DNA of 32,874 nt from Desulfurobacteriaceae bacterium (lineage in GTDB: Bacteria; Aquificota; Aquificia; Desulfurobacteriales; Desulfurobacteriaceae): NCBI GenBank assembly GCA_026987115.1, contig JALSNF010000042.1, positions 1-32,874 on the forward strand. Direction: 5' to 3'. Below are positions 3,872-21,089 of this stretch, in pieces. How positions within the stretch are numbered: the first letter of the stretch is position 1; every line of letters begins with the position of its first letter. A program made the translations under genes and the position numbers. The notes under the pieces are model-generated. The model was not told where the DNA came from and ran no database searches. It saw only the letters and a program-made list of their open reading frames with translations.

Positions 3872-6800
3872 ATGGGAAAAACCAAGAAACTAACCAAGAA
3901 GCCCCAAAAAGAGAAAATCACATCCCTTCCAAGGAAAAGCTTTGCCAAAAGGGAAGAAAACTACCCGGTTCCAGACCTTCTAAAGTTCCCCTTTGAATCT
4001 TACGAGAGGTTCCTACAGCTTAACAAGGCTCCCCACGAAAGGGAAAATGTAGGCCTTGAATCTGCCTTTAGACAAGCCTTTCCCATAGTTGACGAGGCAA
4101 CGGGAGTTGAAATTCACTATAAAGGATATGAGATAGGAGACTGGTACTGTAAGTGTGGAAAGTACCAAGGCCTCGGAGGAAAAGGGGTAGTCTGTGAAAA
4201 GTGCGGAATGGAAGTGGTTTTCAGGCCCAAATACACTCCTGACGAGTGTAAGGAAAGGGGAATAGATTACAGCGCTCCCTTGAGGGTGCTTTTAGAGCTC
4301 CACGTCTGGCAGAAAGACCCAAACACAGGAGAGAAAATAGCTCCCATAATAAAACAAAACAAAATGTACTTTGGTGAAATACCTTTAATGACCGAAAGGG
4401 CAACCTTCATAATAAACGGAACAGAGAAGGTAGTAGTAAGCCAGCTTCACCGCTCCCCTGGACTCTTCTTCAAAAACGAAGTTTCAAAAACTACTCAAGT
4501 TGCAAGGATTATAGACATTGCAAGCATAATACCTGCAATGGGCTCTTGGCTTGAGTTTGAAATACCTTACAACGATGTTCTTTACGCCAAGATAGACAGG
4601 AAAAGGCGCTTTATAGGAACTTACCTGTTAAGGGCCTTCGGTTTAAGAACCGACGAGGAGATATTAAGCGTCTTTTGCAAGGACGCAATAGAAAACTTTA
4701 AAGTTGAAGGCGGAGAGATAGTTAACGTTGAGACAGGAGAGGTTAAAAAGCCTGAAGAGCTCTCAGACTACTACTTGGTTTCAGACGTTATAGACCCTGA
4801 AACGGGAGAGGTGGTTCAGGAGGCTTACGAGGAGCTCTCTTTAAGCTCAAGGAAACTCCCCGAAGGTGCAGAATTTAAGGCAATAAGCAAGAAGAAAAGC
4901 CCTTACGGTGCAGTAATAGTAAACACTTTAAGGAAAGAGAAAAGGGACAGGGTAAGGGAAAAGATAGAAGACCCTCTAATTGCTGCCTACGTTGAAATAT
5001 TCAGGAAAGTACGCCCCGGAGACACGGCTACGGTAGAGGGAGCAAAAAGGCTCTTTGAGTCTATGTTCTTTAGTGCCAAAAACTATGACCTTTCAAGGGT
5101 AGGTAGAGCCAAGATAAACGAGAAAGTCTATCCAAAAGAGAAACTTGAAAAAGTCAACAAAGAAGACCTTAAGAGAATTGACTGGCTTCCTCCTTTAAGG
5201 ATTGCAGAAGACGTCCTAAACGAGGACGGGGACATAATAGTTCCAAAAGGGACTCTATTAACCCCGGAAGTTGCACTAAAACTTGCAGCTCAGAAACAGG
5301 AAGAGTTTAAAGTTGAACCAGACTACGACGAGGCAGGAAGGCTCCTTCACAAAGCAGACGTTGTAGGAGCAGTAAAGGCTTTAATGGAAGTCCACGCAGA
5401 GCTCCGCCCCTACGACGACATAGACCACTTAGGAAACAGGAGAGTAAGAGGGGTTGGAGAGTTAGCAGAGATAGCCTTTAAGTCAGGTCTCTTTAAACTT
5501 GAAAAGGCGGTAAAGGAAAAGCTTGCAGTTGCAGACATTGACTCTGTAATGCCCCAAGACCTAATAAATCCAAGAACAGCCCTTAACCCCTTAAGAGAGT
5601 TCTTCACCTTAACTTCCCTTTGCCAGTTTATGGACCAGACCAACCCCCTAGCAGAGACTACCCACAAAAGGAGGCTCTCTGCCCTCGGCCCCGGAGGACT
5701 AACCAGGGAAAGGGCAGGATTTGAAGTAAGGGACGTTCACCCGTCCCACTACGGTAGAATCTGCCCAATAGAAACTCCCGAAGGGCAGAACATAGGTCTT
5801 ATAAACTCATTAACCACATACGGAAGGATTAACTGGTTAGGATTCTTAGAAACCCCTTACAGGAAGGTGGTAAACGGCAAAGTTACAGACGAGATAGTCT
5901 ATATGACGGCAGACGAAGAAGAGAACTACGTAATAGCTCAGGCAAACGCTCCAGTTGACGAAAACGGCTACATTACCGCAGATACGGTAATGGCCCGCCA
6001 CAAGGCCGAGTTTAAGCTCGTCAAAAGAGAGGAAGTTCAATTTATGGACGTTTCACCAAAGCAGGTCTTCTCTGTCTCCTCCTCACTAATACCTTTCCTT
6101 GAGCACGACGACGCAAACAGGGCCCTTATGGGTTCAAACATGCAGCGTCAAGCCGTTCCACTTATAAAGACAGAGGCGCCCTTTGTAGCTACTGGAATGG
6201 AGAAAGAGGTTGCCCTTTACAGTAGAGCCGCCGTAGTTGCAAAGCGTTCCGGAGTTGTAGAGAGCGTAACTGCTGACAAGATAATAATTAAAGTTGACCC
6301 AGAAGAGATAGAAGAAGGGGGAATCTCCGTAGATACTGGATTTGACGTGTACAACCTTAAGAAGTTCCAGAAGTCAAACCAGAAGACCTGCATAAACCAA
6401 AGGCCGATAGTAAAGAAAGGACAGAGAGTTAAAAAGGGCCAGATAATAGCCGACGGTCCCTCTATGGAAAACGGGGAGCTGGCCTTAGGTAAGAACGTAT
6501 TGGTAGCGTTTATGCCTTGGAGAGGCTACAACTTTGAAGACGCAATACTTGTAAGTGAAAGGCTCTTAAAAGACGACGTATATACTTCAATCCACATTCA
6601 AGAGTTTGAGTGTGAAGCAGTTGAAACGAAGCTAGGTAGAGAAGAGATAACCAGGGACATACCAAACGTCCCGGAATACGCCCTTAAAGACCTTGACGAG
6701 TCAGGAATAGTCAGAATCGGAACCTACGTTAAGCCCGGAGACATCTTAGTTGGAAAGGTTACTCCTAAGGGAGAGCAGGTATTAAGCCCTGAGGAGAAGC

Positions 6801-8197
6801 TCCTTCAAGCAATCTTCGGGGAAAAAGCCAAGAGCGTTAAAGACACCTCTTTAAGAGTTCCCCACGGAGTTGAAGGAGTAGTAATTGACGTTAAGATTCT
6901 CTCAAGGAAGGGGGAAAAGAAAGACCCGAGAACTCAGCTTATAGAGGCTGAAGAAAAGGCAAAACTTGAGAGGGAGAAGCAGGAAGAGATAAGCCTAATC
7001 AAGAAGGATAGAGACAGGAAAGCCGCAGAAGTAATAATCGGCAAAAAGGTTAAAGAAGACGTTTATGATGGAGCTGGGAACTTAATAATCTCAGCAGGAG
7101 AGGAGATTACCGAAGATAAGGTTAACGAACTGGTCTTCTTTGCTCTCAGGAAACCATCAATAATTGACGATGAAAAGACAGTAGAAGAGCTTAAGAAGAT
7201 AAGGATTAAAGCCGTTGATAAGATAGCTTTAGTTGAGAACATCTACGAGGAGAAAAAGGCTGCCATTGAAATGGGACACGACCTCCCTGCAGGGGTCAAC
7301 AAGAAGGTTAAGGTATTCATTGCAACAAAGAGGAAGCTAACAATCGGTGATAAGATGTCCGGCCGCCACGGAAACAAGGGCGTAATATCCCAGATTAGAC
7401 CTGTTGAGGACATGCCTTTCTTGGAAGATGGAACTCCCGTTGATATAGTCCTTAACCCCCTCGGCGTTCCCTCCCGTATGAACGTTGGACAGATTCTTGA
7501 AGTCCACTTAGGCTTGGCGGCCAAAGAGCTCGGTAAGAGGATAGAGGAGCTCTTAAAGGCAGGCCTTGACAAGGTAAGGGAAGAGATAAAGGCAATCTAC
7601 AACGACGAGAGGATAAGCAAGCTAATAGACTCCTTATCAGATGAGGAGTTAAGGGAAGTTGCTAAGAAGCTTTCAAAAGGTATAAGGTTTGAGTCTCCGA
7701 TATTTAACGGAGCCAAAGAGGAGGAAATTAAAGCCCTCTTAAAAAGGGCAGGACTTCCCGAAACTGGCCAGTTGACCCTTTACGACGGTTTAACTGGAGA
7801 GCCCTTTGACCAAGACGTAACCGTTGGATATATGTACATGCTCAAGCTCATCCACCTTGCAGACGACAAAATACACGCCCGTTCAACAGGCCCCTACTCC
7901 CTCATCACCCAACAGCCTTTAGGGGGTAAAGCTCAGTTTGGAGGTCAAAGGTTTGGAGAGATGGAGGTATGGGCACTTGAAGCTTACGGTGCTGCCTATA
8001 CCCTCCAAGAGATGCTGACAGTTAAGTCTGACGACGTAGAGGGCCGTTCAAGGGTTTACGAGGCAATAGTTAAAGGTAAGTACTCCTTTGAGCCAAGCCT
8101 TCCAGAATCTTTTAACGTTCTAGTTAGAGAGCTTAAAGCTCTTGCCCTTGACGTTAAGTTCATAAAAGAGGTTGAAGAGGAAGAGAGCGAAAACTAA
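3872..8197 (+). CDS. rpoB: DNA-directed RNA polymerase subunit beta, with a beta'-like zinc-ribbon insertion
   Basis: The beta subunit, of 1441 residues, forms one pincer and part of the active centre of RNA polymerase. Recognisable blocks include [38 protein letters not shown], the rifampicin-region block [40 protein letters not shown], and [17 protein letters not shown] (about residues 1160-1175). It ends with the beta-beta' clamp segment [20 protein letters not shown]. Several lineage-type extensions appear, including about 280-330 and a lysine/glutamate-rich block near 1025-1120. The odd part is residues 90-115: four cysteines (C93, C95, C108, C111) in a segment very similar to the N-terminal zinc ribbon of beta'. 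The ATG has an AGAGGAGA ribosome binding site. Confidence 0.97.
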
Positions 8198-8246: not shown

Positions 8247-11200
8247 GTGAGCAAAAAGGAAATCGTCTTCTCTGAAGAGCCTAAAACTTTTGATTTTGAT
8301 GCCGTTGAAATCGGGCTTGCCTCACCTGAAAAGATAAGGAGCTGGTCTCACGGAGAGGTTAAACTCCCTGAGACCCTTAACTATAGAACGTTAAAACCTG
8401 AAAAGGACGGTCTTTTCTGTGCAAGGATTTTCGGGCCAATTAGAGACTGGGAGTGTCTCTGCGGTAAGTATAAAGGGTCTAAATATGCAGGAGTAATATG
8501 CGACAGGTGCGGCGTTGAGGTAACACTCTCAAAGGAAAGGAGAAGAAGGTTTGGACACATTGAGCTTGCCGCTCCCTGCACCCACATATGGTACATAAAG
8601 TCAGTTCCAAGCAAGATAGGAGCTCTCTTAGGTCTCTCTGTGAGAGAAGTAGAAAGGGTAGTTTACTTTGAAAGCTACATAGTTTTAGACCCGGGAGACG
8701 AGGAAGAAACAGGACTTGAGAAGTTTCAGCTTTTAACCGAGGAAGAGTACAGGGAAAAGGTAGAAGAGCTTGGGGAGGACGCCTTTGAAGTAGGAATAGG
8801 AGCAGCAGGCATAAAAGAAGCCCTAAAGAGAGTTGACTTAGAAGAGCTTGCCGAGGACTTAAGGGAAGAAATCAGGATGTACTCTGGGGAGATTTCCTCA
8901 ATTAACGCAGACCTTCAAAAGAAACTCCCCAACGTCTTTAAGGCAGCGGTGGACACACTCTCTTACTACACTGGTCTTTCCGAAGATACGATTATAGGGA
9001 TAGTCAAGAACGTACTTGTAGTCGTAGTTGAGCCTGGAGACTCTGGCCTAGAAAAGGGGCAGATAATAGACTACACAGACTACAAGAAGCTCAAAGAGAA
9101 GTTTAACATTGAAGTAGAAAAGGGAGGAAAGGCCTTAGACTGGTACGTTGACTTCTTAGTAGAGCAGGGGAAAATACAGAGTAAAGAGCTAGTTAAAGAG
9201 GAAATTAGAAGGGCTACAAGGAAAGACACAACAGAAGCGAAACTTAAAAAGCTCGTTCGCAGGCTAAAGATAGTTGAGTCCTTCCTTAACTCTAATAATA
9301 AACCTGAGTGGATGGTCTTAGAGGTCTTACCTGTATTGCCTCCGGAACTGCGTCCCCTTGTTCCCCTTGAAGGAGGGAGGTTTGCAACTTCTGACTTAAA
9401 CGACCTTTACAGAAGAGTAATAAACAGGAACAACCGTTTAAAGAGGCTTCTTGAGCTTGACGCTCCCGAGATTATCGTAAGGAACGAAATGAGAATGCTT
9501 CAGGAAGCCGTTGATACCTTAATAGACAATGGAAGGAGAGGGAGGCCCGTTAAGTCCTCAAAGGGGCATCCTCTAAAGTCCCTTTCTGACGTCTTAAGGG
9601 GTAAGCAGGGAAGGTTCAGGCAAAACCTCCTTGGAAAGAGGGTTGACTACTCTGGCCGTGCAGTAATAGTGGTAGGCCCCGAGCTTAAGATGCACCAGTG
9701 TGGACTTCCAAAGATTATGGCACTTGAGCTCTTTAAGCCCTTCGTGTATAGGAGGCTTGAGGAGAAAGGTTATGCAAATACACTTAAACTTGCCAAGAAG
9801 ATGGTTGAAAGGCAGGAGCCGGAAGTTTGGGAGTGTCTTGAAGAGGTAATTAAGGAGCATCCGGTTCTTTTAAACAGGGCTCCAACCCTTCACAGGGTAT
9901 CAATTCAAGCATTTGAACCGGTTTTAGTTGAAGGTAAAGCTATACAGCTCCACCCCCTTGTGTGTACTGCCTTCAACGCAGACTTTGACGGCGACCAGAT
10001 GGCAGTTCACGTTCCACTTTCCTTGGAAGCTCAACTTGAAGCATATACCCTAATGCTCTCTACCCAGAACATCCTCTCCCCTGCCCACGGCAAACCCCTT
10101 GCAGTTCCGTCTCAGGACATGGTTTTAGGCCTTTACTACATGACACTTGAAAAGCCCGGAGCAAAGGGAGAAGGAAAAGTATTTAAGGACTTTGACGAAG
10201 TTTTAAAAGCGCTGGAGCTTGGAGAGGTAGAGCTCCACGCAAGGATAAAGGTAAAACTGCCTCCCAACAAAACAGAAAGCGGCAAAGAGGAGATAATAAC
10301 TACCACCGTAGGAAGGGTTAAGTTCAACACTTTACTTCCCGAAAACTACCCCTTCGTTAACAAAGTAATGGTTAAAAAGGAAGTTGCAGCCCTAATTGCA
10401 GACGTTCACAAGAAACTAGGGAACGAAACAACAATAGACATGCTAGACAGGTTAAAGGAGGCAGGGTTCATCCAAGCTACCGTTGGAGGACTCTCAATTG
10501 GAATTAACGACCTCCACATACCCCCAACCAAGAAAGAGCTAATAGAGAAGGCTAAAAGAGAAATAGTTGAAATTGAGGAGGGCTACAAAAACGGCCTTCT
10601 GTCAAGGGACGAGAGGTACAACAAGATAGTTGACATATGGACAAGGGTCACGGAGCAGCTTACAAGGGACATGATGGAGTACATGAAGAGCCACGACATT
10701 GACTCAAGGGGAAGGCTCCCCAACGACGGGACCTTTAATCCAGTTTACATGATGCTTGCCTCCGGTGCCCGCGGTAGCCAGACCCAGATTCGCCAGCTTG
10801 CAGGTATGAGAGGACTTATGGCTAAACCTTCAGGAGAGATTATTGAGACCCCGATTATCTCTAACTTCCGCGAAGGTCTAACGGTCCTTGAGTACTTTAT
10901 CTCAACCCACGGAGCAAGGAAAGGTCTTGCAGATACGGCTCTCAAAACTGCAGACGCAGGATACCTAACGAGAAGGCTTGCAGACGTAGCCCAAGATGTA
11001 ATAATTACGATGGAAGACTGTGGGTGCGAAGACGGAATAGAAGTATCTGCTCTTATGGAAGCAGGGGAGATAGTAATACCCCTTGCAAAGAGAATTGCAG
11101 GACGCTACGCAGCTGAAGACGTGGTTGACCCGATAACCGGAGAAGTCCTAGTTAAGAAAGACGAAGAAATAACAGAAGAAGTTGCTCAGAGAATAGAAGA

Positions 11201-12659
11201 CTTGGGAATTGACAAGGTAAAGGTTCGCTCAATTCTTACCTGTAGAGCTCCCTTTGGAGTCTGCTCAAAGTGCTACGGCAGAGACCTAGCAAGACAAAGG
11301 CCTGTTCAGCTTGGAGAGGCAATAGGTATAGTTGCTGCCCAGTCAATCGGCGAGCCCGGTACTCAGCTGACTATGAGGACCTTCCACATTGGCGGTATCG
11401 CTATGAGGGGGGCTGAAGCATCTGAATACAGAGCCAAGCACGACGGGGTAGTTAAGGTATTTAACGCCAACACAATTACCGACGAAAAGGGAAGAGTAAT
11501 AGTAATAAACAGGGCAGGGAAAATCGCCGTTGTTGACCCGAAAACAGGTAAACACCTTGAAAGGTACGACATCCCTTACGCCGCAGTACTAAAAGTTAAA
11601 GACGGTCAAGAGGTAAAGAAAGGACAGATATTGGCAGAGTGGGACCCCCACGCAATTCCTATACTTGCTCTAAGAAGCGGTAAGGTAAGGTTCAAAGACA
11701 TAATACCCGGAATAACAATCTCTGAAACGGAGCCTGTAATACTTGAATACAGGACCCTACCTTACGAACCTACGATAGAGCTCCTAAACGAAGAAGGAGA
11801 AGTAATAGACTTCTACCCTCTCCCTGTTGAAGCAAGGATAATGGTTAAAGAGGGAGAGGAGGTTAAGGTAGGAGCTCAGCTTGCAAGGCTCCCAAGAAAA
11901 ATTGGAGGAACCAAGGACATTACAGGAGGTCTCCCAAGGGTTGCTGAACTCTTTGAAGCAAGGAGGCCGAAAGACGCTGCAATACTTGCAGAGATAAGCG
12001 GTAAAGTCCACGTTGCCACCGAGAAGAACAAGATAATAATCACGATAGTTGACCCTGAAACTGGAGTGAAAAGGGAGTACGAGGTTCCAAAGGGTAAGTA
12101 CATCTACGTAAGGACGGGAGACTTTGTAAAAGCCGGAGAGCCCTTAACAGACGGTCAGCTAAACCCTCACGACATACTCAACATCTTAGGAGAAAGGGCA
12201 GTAGCAAGGTTCTTACTAGACGAAATCCAATCTGTTTACAGAGCTCAAGGGGTTGACATTAACGACAAGCACTTTGAAGTGATAATTAAGAAGATGCTCT
12301 CTAAAGTAAGAATTGAAGACTCTGGAGACTCTAGCTACCTTGTAGAGGAAGTTGTTGACAGGGAAGAGTTTGAAAAGGTTAGAGAGAAACTGTTTAAAGA
12401 GGGTAAAAGGCCTCCAAAGGCAAGACCCCTTCTAACAGGTATAACAAAGGCTGCCCTCTCAACCCCATCTTTCATCTCTGCAGCCTCCTTCCAAGAGACA
12501 ACAAGGGTCCTCTCTGAAGCTGCAATTGCAGGCAAGAGGGACTACCTAAAAGGACTTAAAGAAAACGTGATAATCGGAAGGTTAATACCTGCAGGAACGG
12601 GAAGGAAAGAGTATAGGAAAGTTAGCTGGAAGTACTGCCAAGAGGAAGAAAAGAAATAG
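8247..12659 (+). CDS. rpoC: DNA-directed RNA polymerase subunit beta' (GTG start)
   Basis: The beta' subunit, of 1470 residues, holds the catalytic magnesium. The N-terminal zinc ribbon is C70-x-C72-x12-C85-x2-C88. The clamp and switch block contains [20 protein letters not shown]. The active-site motif NADFDGD places the three aspartates at D579, D581 and D583. The bridge helix and trigger loop region has [23 protein letters not shown]. The second zinc site includes CGCEDG and [20 protein letters not shown]. The C-terminal region has [21 protein letters not shown]. The start is GTG at 8247 after a TTAGGAGGAG ribosome binding site. A strong terminator follows the stop, ending the cluster. Confidence 0.98.
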
Positions 12660-20057: not shown

Positions 20058-21089
20058 ATGGCACTAGCTTCAGGACTTGACTACAGAGACTTAGAAAGGC
20101 TTCTCCTCTATTTTGAGATAAGGGAAAAGGATATTAAAAACCTTATGTTCCTCGGTCAAATTCTCATTCCCTACAAAGAAGAGTTTGCAGAGGCTTTCTA
20201 CGACAACCTTATGAAGTTCCCAGACATAAAAGATTACATACCGGAAGAGAAACTCCAGAGGTTAAAGGAGACAATAAAAGACTGGTACGCTAAGCTCTTT
20301 TCAGGCAAGTACGACTCAGAGTACCTCCTTTACCTGTTAAAGATAGCGAAAGTTCACGTGGAAGAGGGAATCCCCCCTCACTACATAATAGTTGCAATGA
20401 ACTTTGTAAGCCGCTTCTGCACCAGGAGAGTTTCAGAGTACTTTAAAAAGCACGGACTCTCCTTTTTCAAGGAATACCAGAGGGAACAGGAGAAGTTCTG
20501 CGACCCTCAGAACTTGGAAACCCTTGAAAGGTTCGTAATAGAAGAGCTCTTTGACAGGATGGAGGACCTAACCCGCTCACTTAGGAAGATAATTGCCCTT
20601 AACGAGGACGTTTTAATCTCATACTACGTTGACGCTGAAATGAAGACCTTCCTTGAGGCAGGAAGGACTGAGAGGTTTGCAATTGCCTTTAGCAAGAGGT
20701 TTGCAGTTTTTATGGACATTGCAATACTCATTGGCCTTATGTTCTTAGCGCTTTTCGTAATAGCCCTTTTCGTAAAGGACGTGGTCCACTTCTTCCACGG
20801 AGACCTTGCCCACAGTCTAATAGCAGCAATGGGAGACCTCCTTATACTCTGGACAGTCCTAGAGCTCCTTAACAGCGAAATAAAGTTCATGCTGGGAGGA
20901 GAGCTCGCAGTAAGCGCCTTTGTAAGCGTGGCCTTGGCTGCAACCATCAGGGAAGCCTTAGTAGTTTCCCTTGAACACGGGAAGCCCATAGAGTTTAAGC
21001 TGGGGATTGGAGCTCTCATCTTCATTCTCGGCGTAGTTTACGGAATAGTTAAGTGGTTTGAGATAAAACAGAAAAAGAGGTTAAGGTAA
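20058..21089 (+). CDS. Membrane protein: protoglobin (globin-sensor) domain fused to a PsiE-like domain
   Basis: This 343-residue protein has two parts. Residues 5-175 look like a protoglobin or globin-coupled-sensor haem domain, with the F-helix pattern KIAKVHVEEGIPPHYIIVA, in which H100 is the candidate haem ligand. After a helical linker, residues 215-335 form a membrane domain of about four helices (219-241, 255-272, 283-303, 316-333). The segment LELLNSEIKFMLGGELAVSA and AATIREALV resembles the PsiE family. A haem sensor that signals to or through the membrane is plausible, with O2, NO, CO or redox as possible inputs. The ligand and output are unknown. It sits between dapA (1-base gap) and dapB (TAATG, 1-base overlap). 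Confidence 0.75.
   Translation: MALASGLDYRDLERLLLYFEIREKDIKNLMFLGQILIPYKEEFAEAFYDNLMKFPDIKDYIPEEKLQRLKETIKDWYAKLFSGKYDSEYLLYLLKIAKVHVEEGIPPHYIIVAMNFVSRFCTRRVSEYFKKHGLSFFKEYQREQEKFCDPQNLETLERFVIEELFDRMEDLTRSLRKIIALNEDVLISYYVDAEMKTFLEAGRTERFAIAFSKRFAVFMDIAILIGLMFLALFVIALFVKDVVHFFHGDLAHSLIAAMGDLLILWTVLELLNSEIKFMLGGELAVSAFVSVALAATIREALVVSLEHGKPIEFKLGIGALIFILGVVYGIVKWFEIKQKKRLR

Follow-up and report, generated by a model that had tools for sequence, protein, structure and literature searches.

In bacterial RNA polymerase the β1-lobe, which is the equivalent of the Rpb2 protrusion, is located close to the upstream portion of the transcription bubble and serves as the binding site for the RID domain of CarD (PMC4593161). 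A 2024 BEAN/HABAS survey of RNA polymerase insertions included the Aquificae, and omitted inserts of <50 residues without domain-database similarity (PMC11515920). According to a review, the Aquificae have a total of five specific indels, none of which is placed at the site described here in the relevant passages (PMC3417386). Few cellular machines are as conserved as RNA polymerase. In a literature search that did not extend to Lane and Darst 2010, no paper was found that describes a β′-like zinc ribbon at this site of bacterial β.

Location and sequence of the β ribbon

The DNA analysed here (the window) is a 32,874 nt contig of a Desulfurobacteriaceae bacterium, and contains rpoB and rpoC. 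A previous reading of the letters of this contig (the sequence-only reading) had noted a copy of the RpoC-type N-terminal zinc ribbon within RpoB, and the coordinates, reading frame, sequences, cysteine spacing and number of identical residues that it gave all agreed with our translations and comparison. The features of the locus are as follows.

3872..8197, + strand: rpoB, RNA polymerase β subunit, 1441 aa, with the ribbon inside (ORF, translation, Pfam Rpb2 domains)
4139..4222, + strand: β ribbon insert, residues 90-117 (PDB and Aquificota alignments, comparison with β′, AlphaFold2)
4148..4156, + strand: putative first zinc knuckle of β, C93-K-C95 (translation, cysteine invariance)
4193..4204, + strand: putative second zinc knuckle of β, C108-E-K-C111 (translation, cysteine invariance)
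8247..12659, + strand: rpoC, RNA polymerase β′ subunit, 1470 aa (ORF, Pfam Rpb1 domains)
8445..8522, + strand: canonical N-terminal zinc ribbon of β′, residues 67-92 (translation, own-genome search, comparison)

Residues 90-115 of β (4139-4216) contain the cysteine pattern C93-x-C95-x12-C108-x2-C111, and 15 of the 26 residues are identical to residues 67-92 of β′, with a cysteine spacing of C-x-C-x12-C-x2-C in both. None of 200,000 shuffles of the β segment with the cysteines kept fixed attained the observed identity or BLOSUM score. A search of the same genome with the β protein matched the β′ ribbon (E=1.7e-5), and a phmmer search of the PDB with the β segment matched β′ chains (E ~5e-6). 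The similarity ends at the edges of the ribbon, as the flanks are not common to both proteins: the insert is bordered by β sequence, with YKGYEIG on one side and a 12-residue segment followed by SAPLRV on the other, and lacks the FGP motif before and the RFGH motif after the β′ ribbon. At the DNA level 47/78 positions are identical, and only 10/26 third codon positions are alike, which gives no sign of recent copying; a recent copy of the rpoC ribbon into rpoB was rejected on the basis of these randomised third positions. Judged by sequence, the two ribbons are related without recent copying, and the insert in β is a real β′-type ribbon with a putative metal content.

In a phmmer comparison with solved β chains, residues 21-90 and 118 onward of the window protein aligned to adjoining residues, and the insert is a clean insertion of ~27 extra residues between E. 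coli β residues 77 and 78, in the β1-lobe (protrusion). The match to the Pfam Rpb2_1 model likewise begins only at residue 118. AlphaFold2 with a 47-sequence alignment gave a pLDDT of 90-91 over residues 91-120 of the window β, and of 89-92 over the same region of the Aquifex form, and Foldseek returned bacterial RNA polymerase β, as expected. The four cysteines are confidently predicted to lie within one small domain; a structure with the cysteines far apart is what the sequence-only reading had named as evidence against its proposal. Its suggestion of altered clamp behaviour is unsupported, the site of the ribbon being the protrusion of β.

Two other proteins encoded in the window were noted for their domains. 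NusG (668-1405, + strand) contains an inserted NusG domain II (PF07009, residues 45-124), and the product of 20058-21089 (+ strand) combines an N-terminal protoglobin domain with a C-terminal PsiE domain, possibly representing a haem-based gas sensor fused to a membrane module.

Distribution of the ribbon

Alignment of RpoB across the Aquificota, which the sequence-only reading had proposed, showed the ribbon to be lineage-wide and not an event of the window genome. A ribbon-containing β was present in 118 of 136 Aquificota genomes (as a count of listed matches). The other 18 comprised 12 with no match to either the β or the β′ ribbon, four with a match to β′ only, and two in which the β match was interrupted by a contig end; no β lacking the ribbon was seen among the 136 genomes. 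A genome-specific oddity or assembly artefact was rejected, as the ribbon is present in all readable Aquificota rpoB genes. We take G041 to be Aquifex aeolicus VF5 and G003 to be Thermovibrio ammonificans, of the genus of the window, and the family names used for the relatives partly rest on these two assumed identities. The indel as such may already be on record, and the Griffiths/Gupta and Gupta/Lali studies of Aquificae indels possibly include it.

A full ribbon was also found in 8/9 genomes of a second GTDB phylum, with the ninth sequence ending in mid-ribbon at a contig end. A scan of GTDB, consisting of two exact peptide patterns, detected the ribbon in three contigs outside Aquificota genomes (L135, L137 and L138), all from this second phylum. 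Judged by its sequences, the locus on L137 is of the usual kind, in which rpoB and rpoC are accompanied by genes for ribosomal proteins and elongation factor G. The NCBI labels of these second-phylum assemblies (L135, L137, L138) are misleading, reading Aquificota or Thermodesulfobacteriota, and contig QOAS01 (L113) encodes an Aquificota-type β yet is filed under Gammaproteobacteria.

The sequence-only reading had held that ordinary β subunits have no zinc ribbon at this site, and had named presence in most bacterial β subunits as evidence against its proposal. The ribbon was absent from the solved bacterial β chains in the PDB and from 100 Pseudomonadota genomes (0/100), which bears out the former and goes against the latter. 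Six gammaproteobacterial loci from the scan have a clean empty site, and in plasmid-borne rpoB matches from several phyla the matched stretch is shorter on the plasmid side than on the query side, as a β lacking the insert would give. A phage origin was rejected, as no relative was present among viral contigs. Clade-wide presence, with the same site being empty in Pseudomonadota and PDB β chains (few other phyla being sampled), marks the ribbon as a lineage-specific insertion of RpoB. The remaining phyla were covered only via the PDB, the few plasmid matches and the pattern-limited scan, and the ribbon possibly occurs in further phyla.

Cysteine-spacing forms and phylogeny of β

What goes beyond the sequence-only reading is that the ribbon extends across the Aquificota and into a second phylum, and that its cysteine spacing takes two main forms. 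The four cysteines show no variation among 70 distinct β ribbons, 16 of which have the C-x-C-x12-C-x2-C spacing and come only from the order of the window and the second phylum. The C-x2-C form is represented by C-x2-C-x15-C-x2-C (38/70) and C-x2-C-x17-C-x2-C (15/70), and a single sequence (1/70) has a C-x4-C variant. A FastTree phylogeny of β, calculated with the ribbon removed and rooted on gammaproteobacteria, placed the second phylum outside the Aquificota (support 1.0), and within the Aquificota separated the Desulfurobacteriales from a group of Hydrogenothermaceae plus a further family (f5) with the Aquificaceae (support 1.0). As the C-x-C form is common to the outgroup phylum and the Desulfurobacteriales, parsimony suggests that it is the older form, with one remodelling. 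In family f5 (L041-L046), the second knuckle of β is followed by additional residues (ENKRIY, for example), and there is another insert of ~10-25 residues downstream of a 12-residue segment.

The two forms differ in their closest matches. With the C-x-C profile, β′ was the only protein among the PDB matches listed (2.3e-6), and hhalign of this profile with a β′ profile gave E=3.4e-13. With the C-x2-C profile the best PDB match was archaeal Rpo12/RpoP (4.3e-7), with β′ at 2.3e-3. Single ribbons from Hydrogenothermaceae and Aquificaceae (L049 and L060), which have the Rpo12-like C-x2-C-x15-C-x2-C spacing, also had archaeal Rpo12 as their best PDB match (1.7e-6 and 6.5e-5). Nevertheless, the C-x-C and C-x2-C forms of β align with each other from end to end including the flanks (3.5e-16), and share these flanks and an LGG/GLG turn, which β′ lacks; on these grounds both are taken as one insertion. 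Outside the cysteines, Desulfurobacteriaceae β is nearest to its own β′, at 46% identity, with 31% for the second phylum and 18-20% for the C-x2-C families. A tree of both ribbons, also suggested by the sequence-only reading, placed Desulfurobacteriales β beside β′ with the second phylum farther away, not in the exact species order, and with ~26 residues this tree is weak and too short to decide the direction of copying.

Origin of the ribbon

We propose that one zinc ribbon was inserted into the β1-lobe (protrusion) in a common ancestor of the Aquificota and the small sister phylum, that its source was most likely a copy of the N-terminal zinc ribbon of β′, and that it would then have been kept by vertical descent. 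In the clade of Hydrogenothermaceae, Aquificaceae and the third family, the first knuckle and loop would have been remodelled to the Rpo12-like C-x2-C form, with the Desulfurobacteriales, including the window, retaining the β′-like form. A single ancient copy from β′ with one later remodelling, giving a protrusion ribbon, is on balance the best overall explanation, by a modest degree of belief. The part concerning the origin from β′, in which we infer the direction of copying, is held slightly more firmly, as probable. The sequence-only reading had left the choice between copying and convergence undecided; the tree order, with the β′-like form in the outgroup and the Desulfurobacteriales, and the profile similarity (3.4e-13) now favour an ancient copy without proving it, as a segment of 26 residues alone is insufficient for proof and most Aquificota versions are Rpo12-like. 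That Desulfurobacteriaceae β is the most β′-like keeps both convergence and gene conversion alive as rivals.

Convergence would mean that an unrelated small ribbon was inserted in β, and later became β′-like in the Desulfurobacteriales and the second phylum or Rpo12-like in the other Aquificota. We consider this unlikely, albeit less so than the other rivals. It could explain why different families match different ribbons, and zinc ribbons are short and compositionally biased, with the C-x2-C forms matching many generic zinc-ribbon models weakly; however, it sits poorly with the outcome of the cysteine-fixed shuffles, the rare C-x-C knuckle and x12 spacing common to β and β′, the hhalign match, and the presence of the C-x-C form on the older branches. 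Alternatively, gene conversion from the rpoC ribbon may have replaced an older, generic β ribbon, wholly or in part, in an ancestor of the Desulfurobacteriales, as rpoB adjoins rpoC and it is Desulfurobacteriaceae β that comes closest to its own β′ (46% outside the cysteines). This is improbable, as the same spacing and the greater part of the signature are found independently in the second phylum, the Desulfurobacteriales β ribbons have kept a β-specific GLG turn and VVC, and the window β and β′ ribbons show no trace of conversion at the DNA level. The insert could also be a built-in analogue of Rpo12 (RpoP), possibly derived from archaea, that bridges the protrusion, wall and alpha side. In favour of this, archaeal Rpo12 is the top PDB match of the C-x2-C forms (4.3e-7 and 1.7e-6) and has the same x15 loop, but it is β′ rather than Rpo12 that the ribbons of the window and of the oldest branches are like, and the insert lacks the conserved basic C-terminal part which carries most of the Rpo12 activity, making such an analogue rather unlikely.

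Metal binding and function

Given their invariance and the predicted fold, the four cysteines of β very probably bind one structural zinc. The most likely role of the ribbon would be that of a zinc-stapled brace which holds the protrusion close to the upstream edge of the bubble, and more specifically we infer, tentatively and with somewhat less than even confidence, that it functions as a thermostabilising brace of the protrusion and open complex.

It is doubtful that the ribbon instead makes contact with DNA of the promoter or with a transcription factor (CarD or Mfd, for example), although RID domains bind to the protrusion, which is close to the upstream edge of the bubble (PMC4593161), and the C-x-C ribbons have a net charge of +3 to +5. 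The net charge of the C-x2-C ribbons is ~0, which argues against conserved binding of the DNA backbone and for packing or bracing, and conserved non-specific DNA binding was thus disfavoured. RID-domain matches were found in Desulfurobacteriaceae in reading frames of both Mfd and CarD length, and once in Hydrogenothermaceae in an Mfd-like frame, whereas the Aquificaceae relatives (L060, L057 and L044) had no RID match over the cut-off, for Mfd or CarD, with one being sub-threshold. The ribbon is thus kept irrespective of RID proteins, and docking of Mfd or CarD was disfavoured as its general purpose. In E. coli the RID domain is bound by an IKE motif, and the equivalent strand is FPPKKV or QPKKV in these Aquificaceae (L060, L057, L044), IKQNK in the window (β residues ~155-165) and, in second-phylum β, [MI]REQK.

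Comparison with known systems

With a phylum-wide ribbon, the RNA polymerase of Aquificota would have one more metal site, close to the upstream edge of the bubble. The ribbon marks a history shared by the Aquificota and a neighbouring phylum, which was represented in this analysis by metagenome assemblies alone, and provides a test case for the movement of domains between subunits of one complex, as well as for bacterial acquisition of an Rpo12-like brace. Since Aquifex aeolicus carries the ribbon, its enzyme could be purified and its structure solved.

As with the β-i inserts of Lane and Darst and the BEAN domains, the ribbon is a clade-wide insert between conserved blocks of β, but differs in being <50 residues, in being a putative metal-binding ribbon, and in having its relative elsewhere within the same enzyme. 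We have therefore not classed this ~27-residue, β′-related cysteine ribbon as a BEAN domain, as it is set apart by size and kinship. With the N-terminal ribbon of β′ it shares the W-x-C-x-C-G-K-Y and G-V-[IV]-C-x-x-C-G sequences, the C-x-C-x12-C-x2-C spacing and a significant sequence and profile match, whereas it sits in the protrusion of β without the β′ flanks, is only about half identical, and in most Aquificota β versions no longer has the β′ spacing.

A duplicate β′ ribbon in the protrusion, which in one clade converged on the Rpo12 sequence and possibly took on the job of Rpo12, bracing the protrusion and keeping open complexes stable in the heat, is a speculative reading to which we give low probability; if true, bacteria would have reached by a path of their own a feature otherwise regarded as archaeal-eukaryotic. 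Like Rpo12 (RpoP) and Rpb12, the ribbon is associated with the second-largest subunit at its protrusion, and in relatives of the window, but not in the window itself, it also has the C-x2-C-x15-C-x2-C spacing and a CPxCG...YK sequence. The insert differs from Rpo12 and Rpb12 in being located inside β, with no separate gene and no basic C-terminal part, and the ribbon of the window is of the C-x-C form, with C-x2-C being confined to other families of the phylum.
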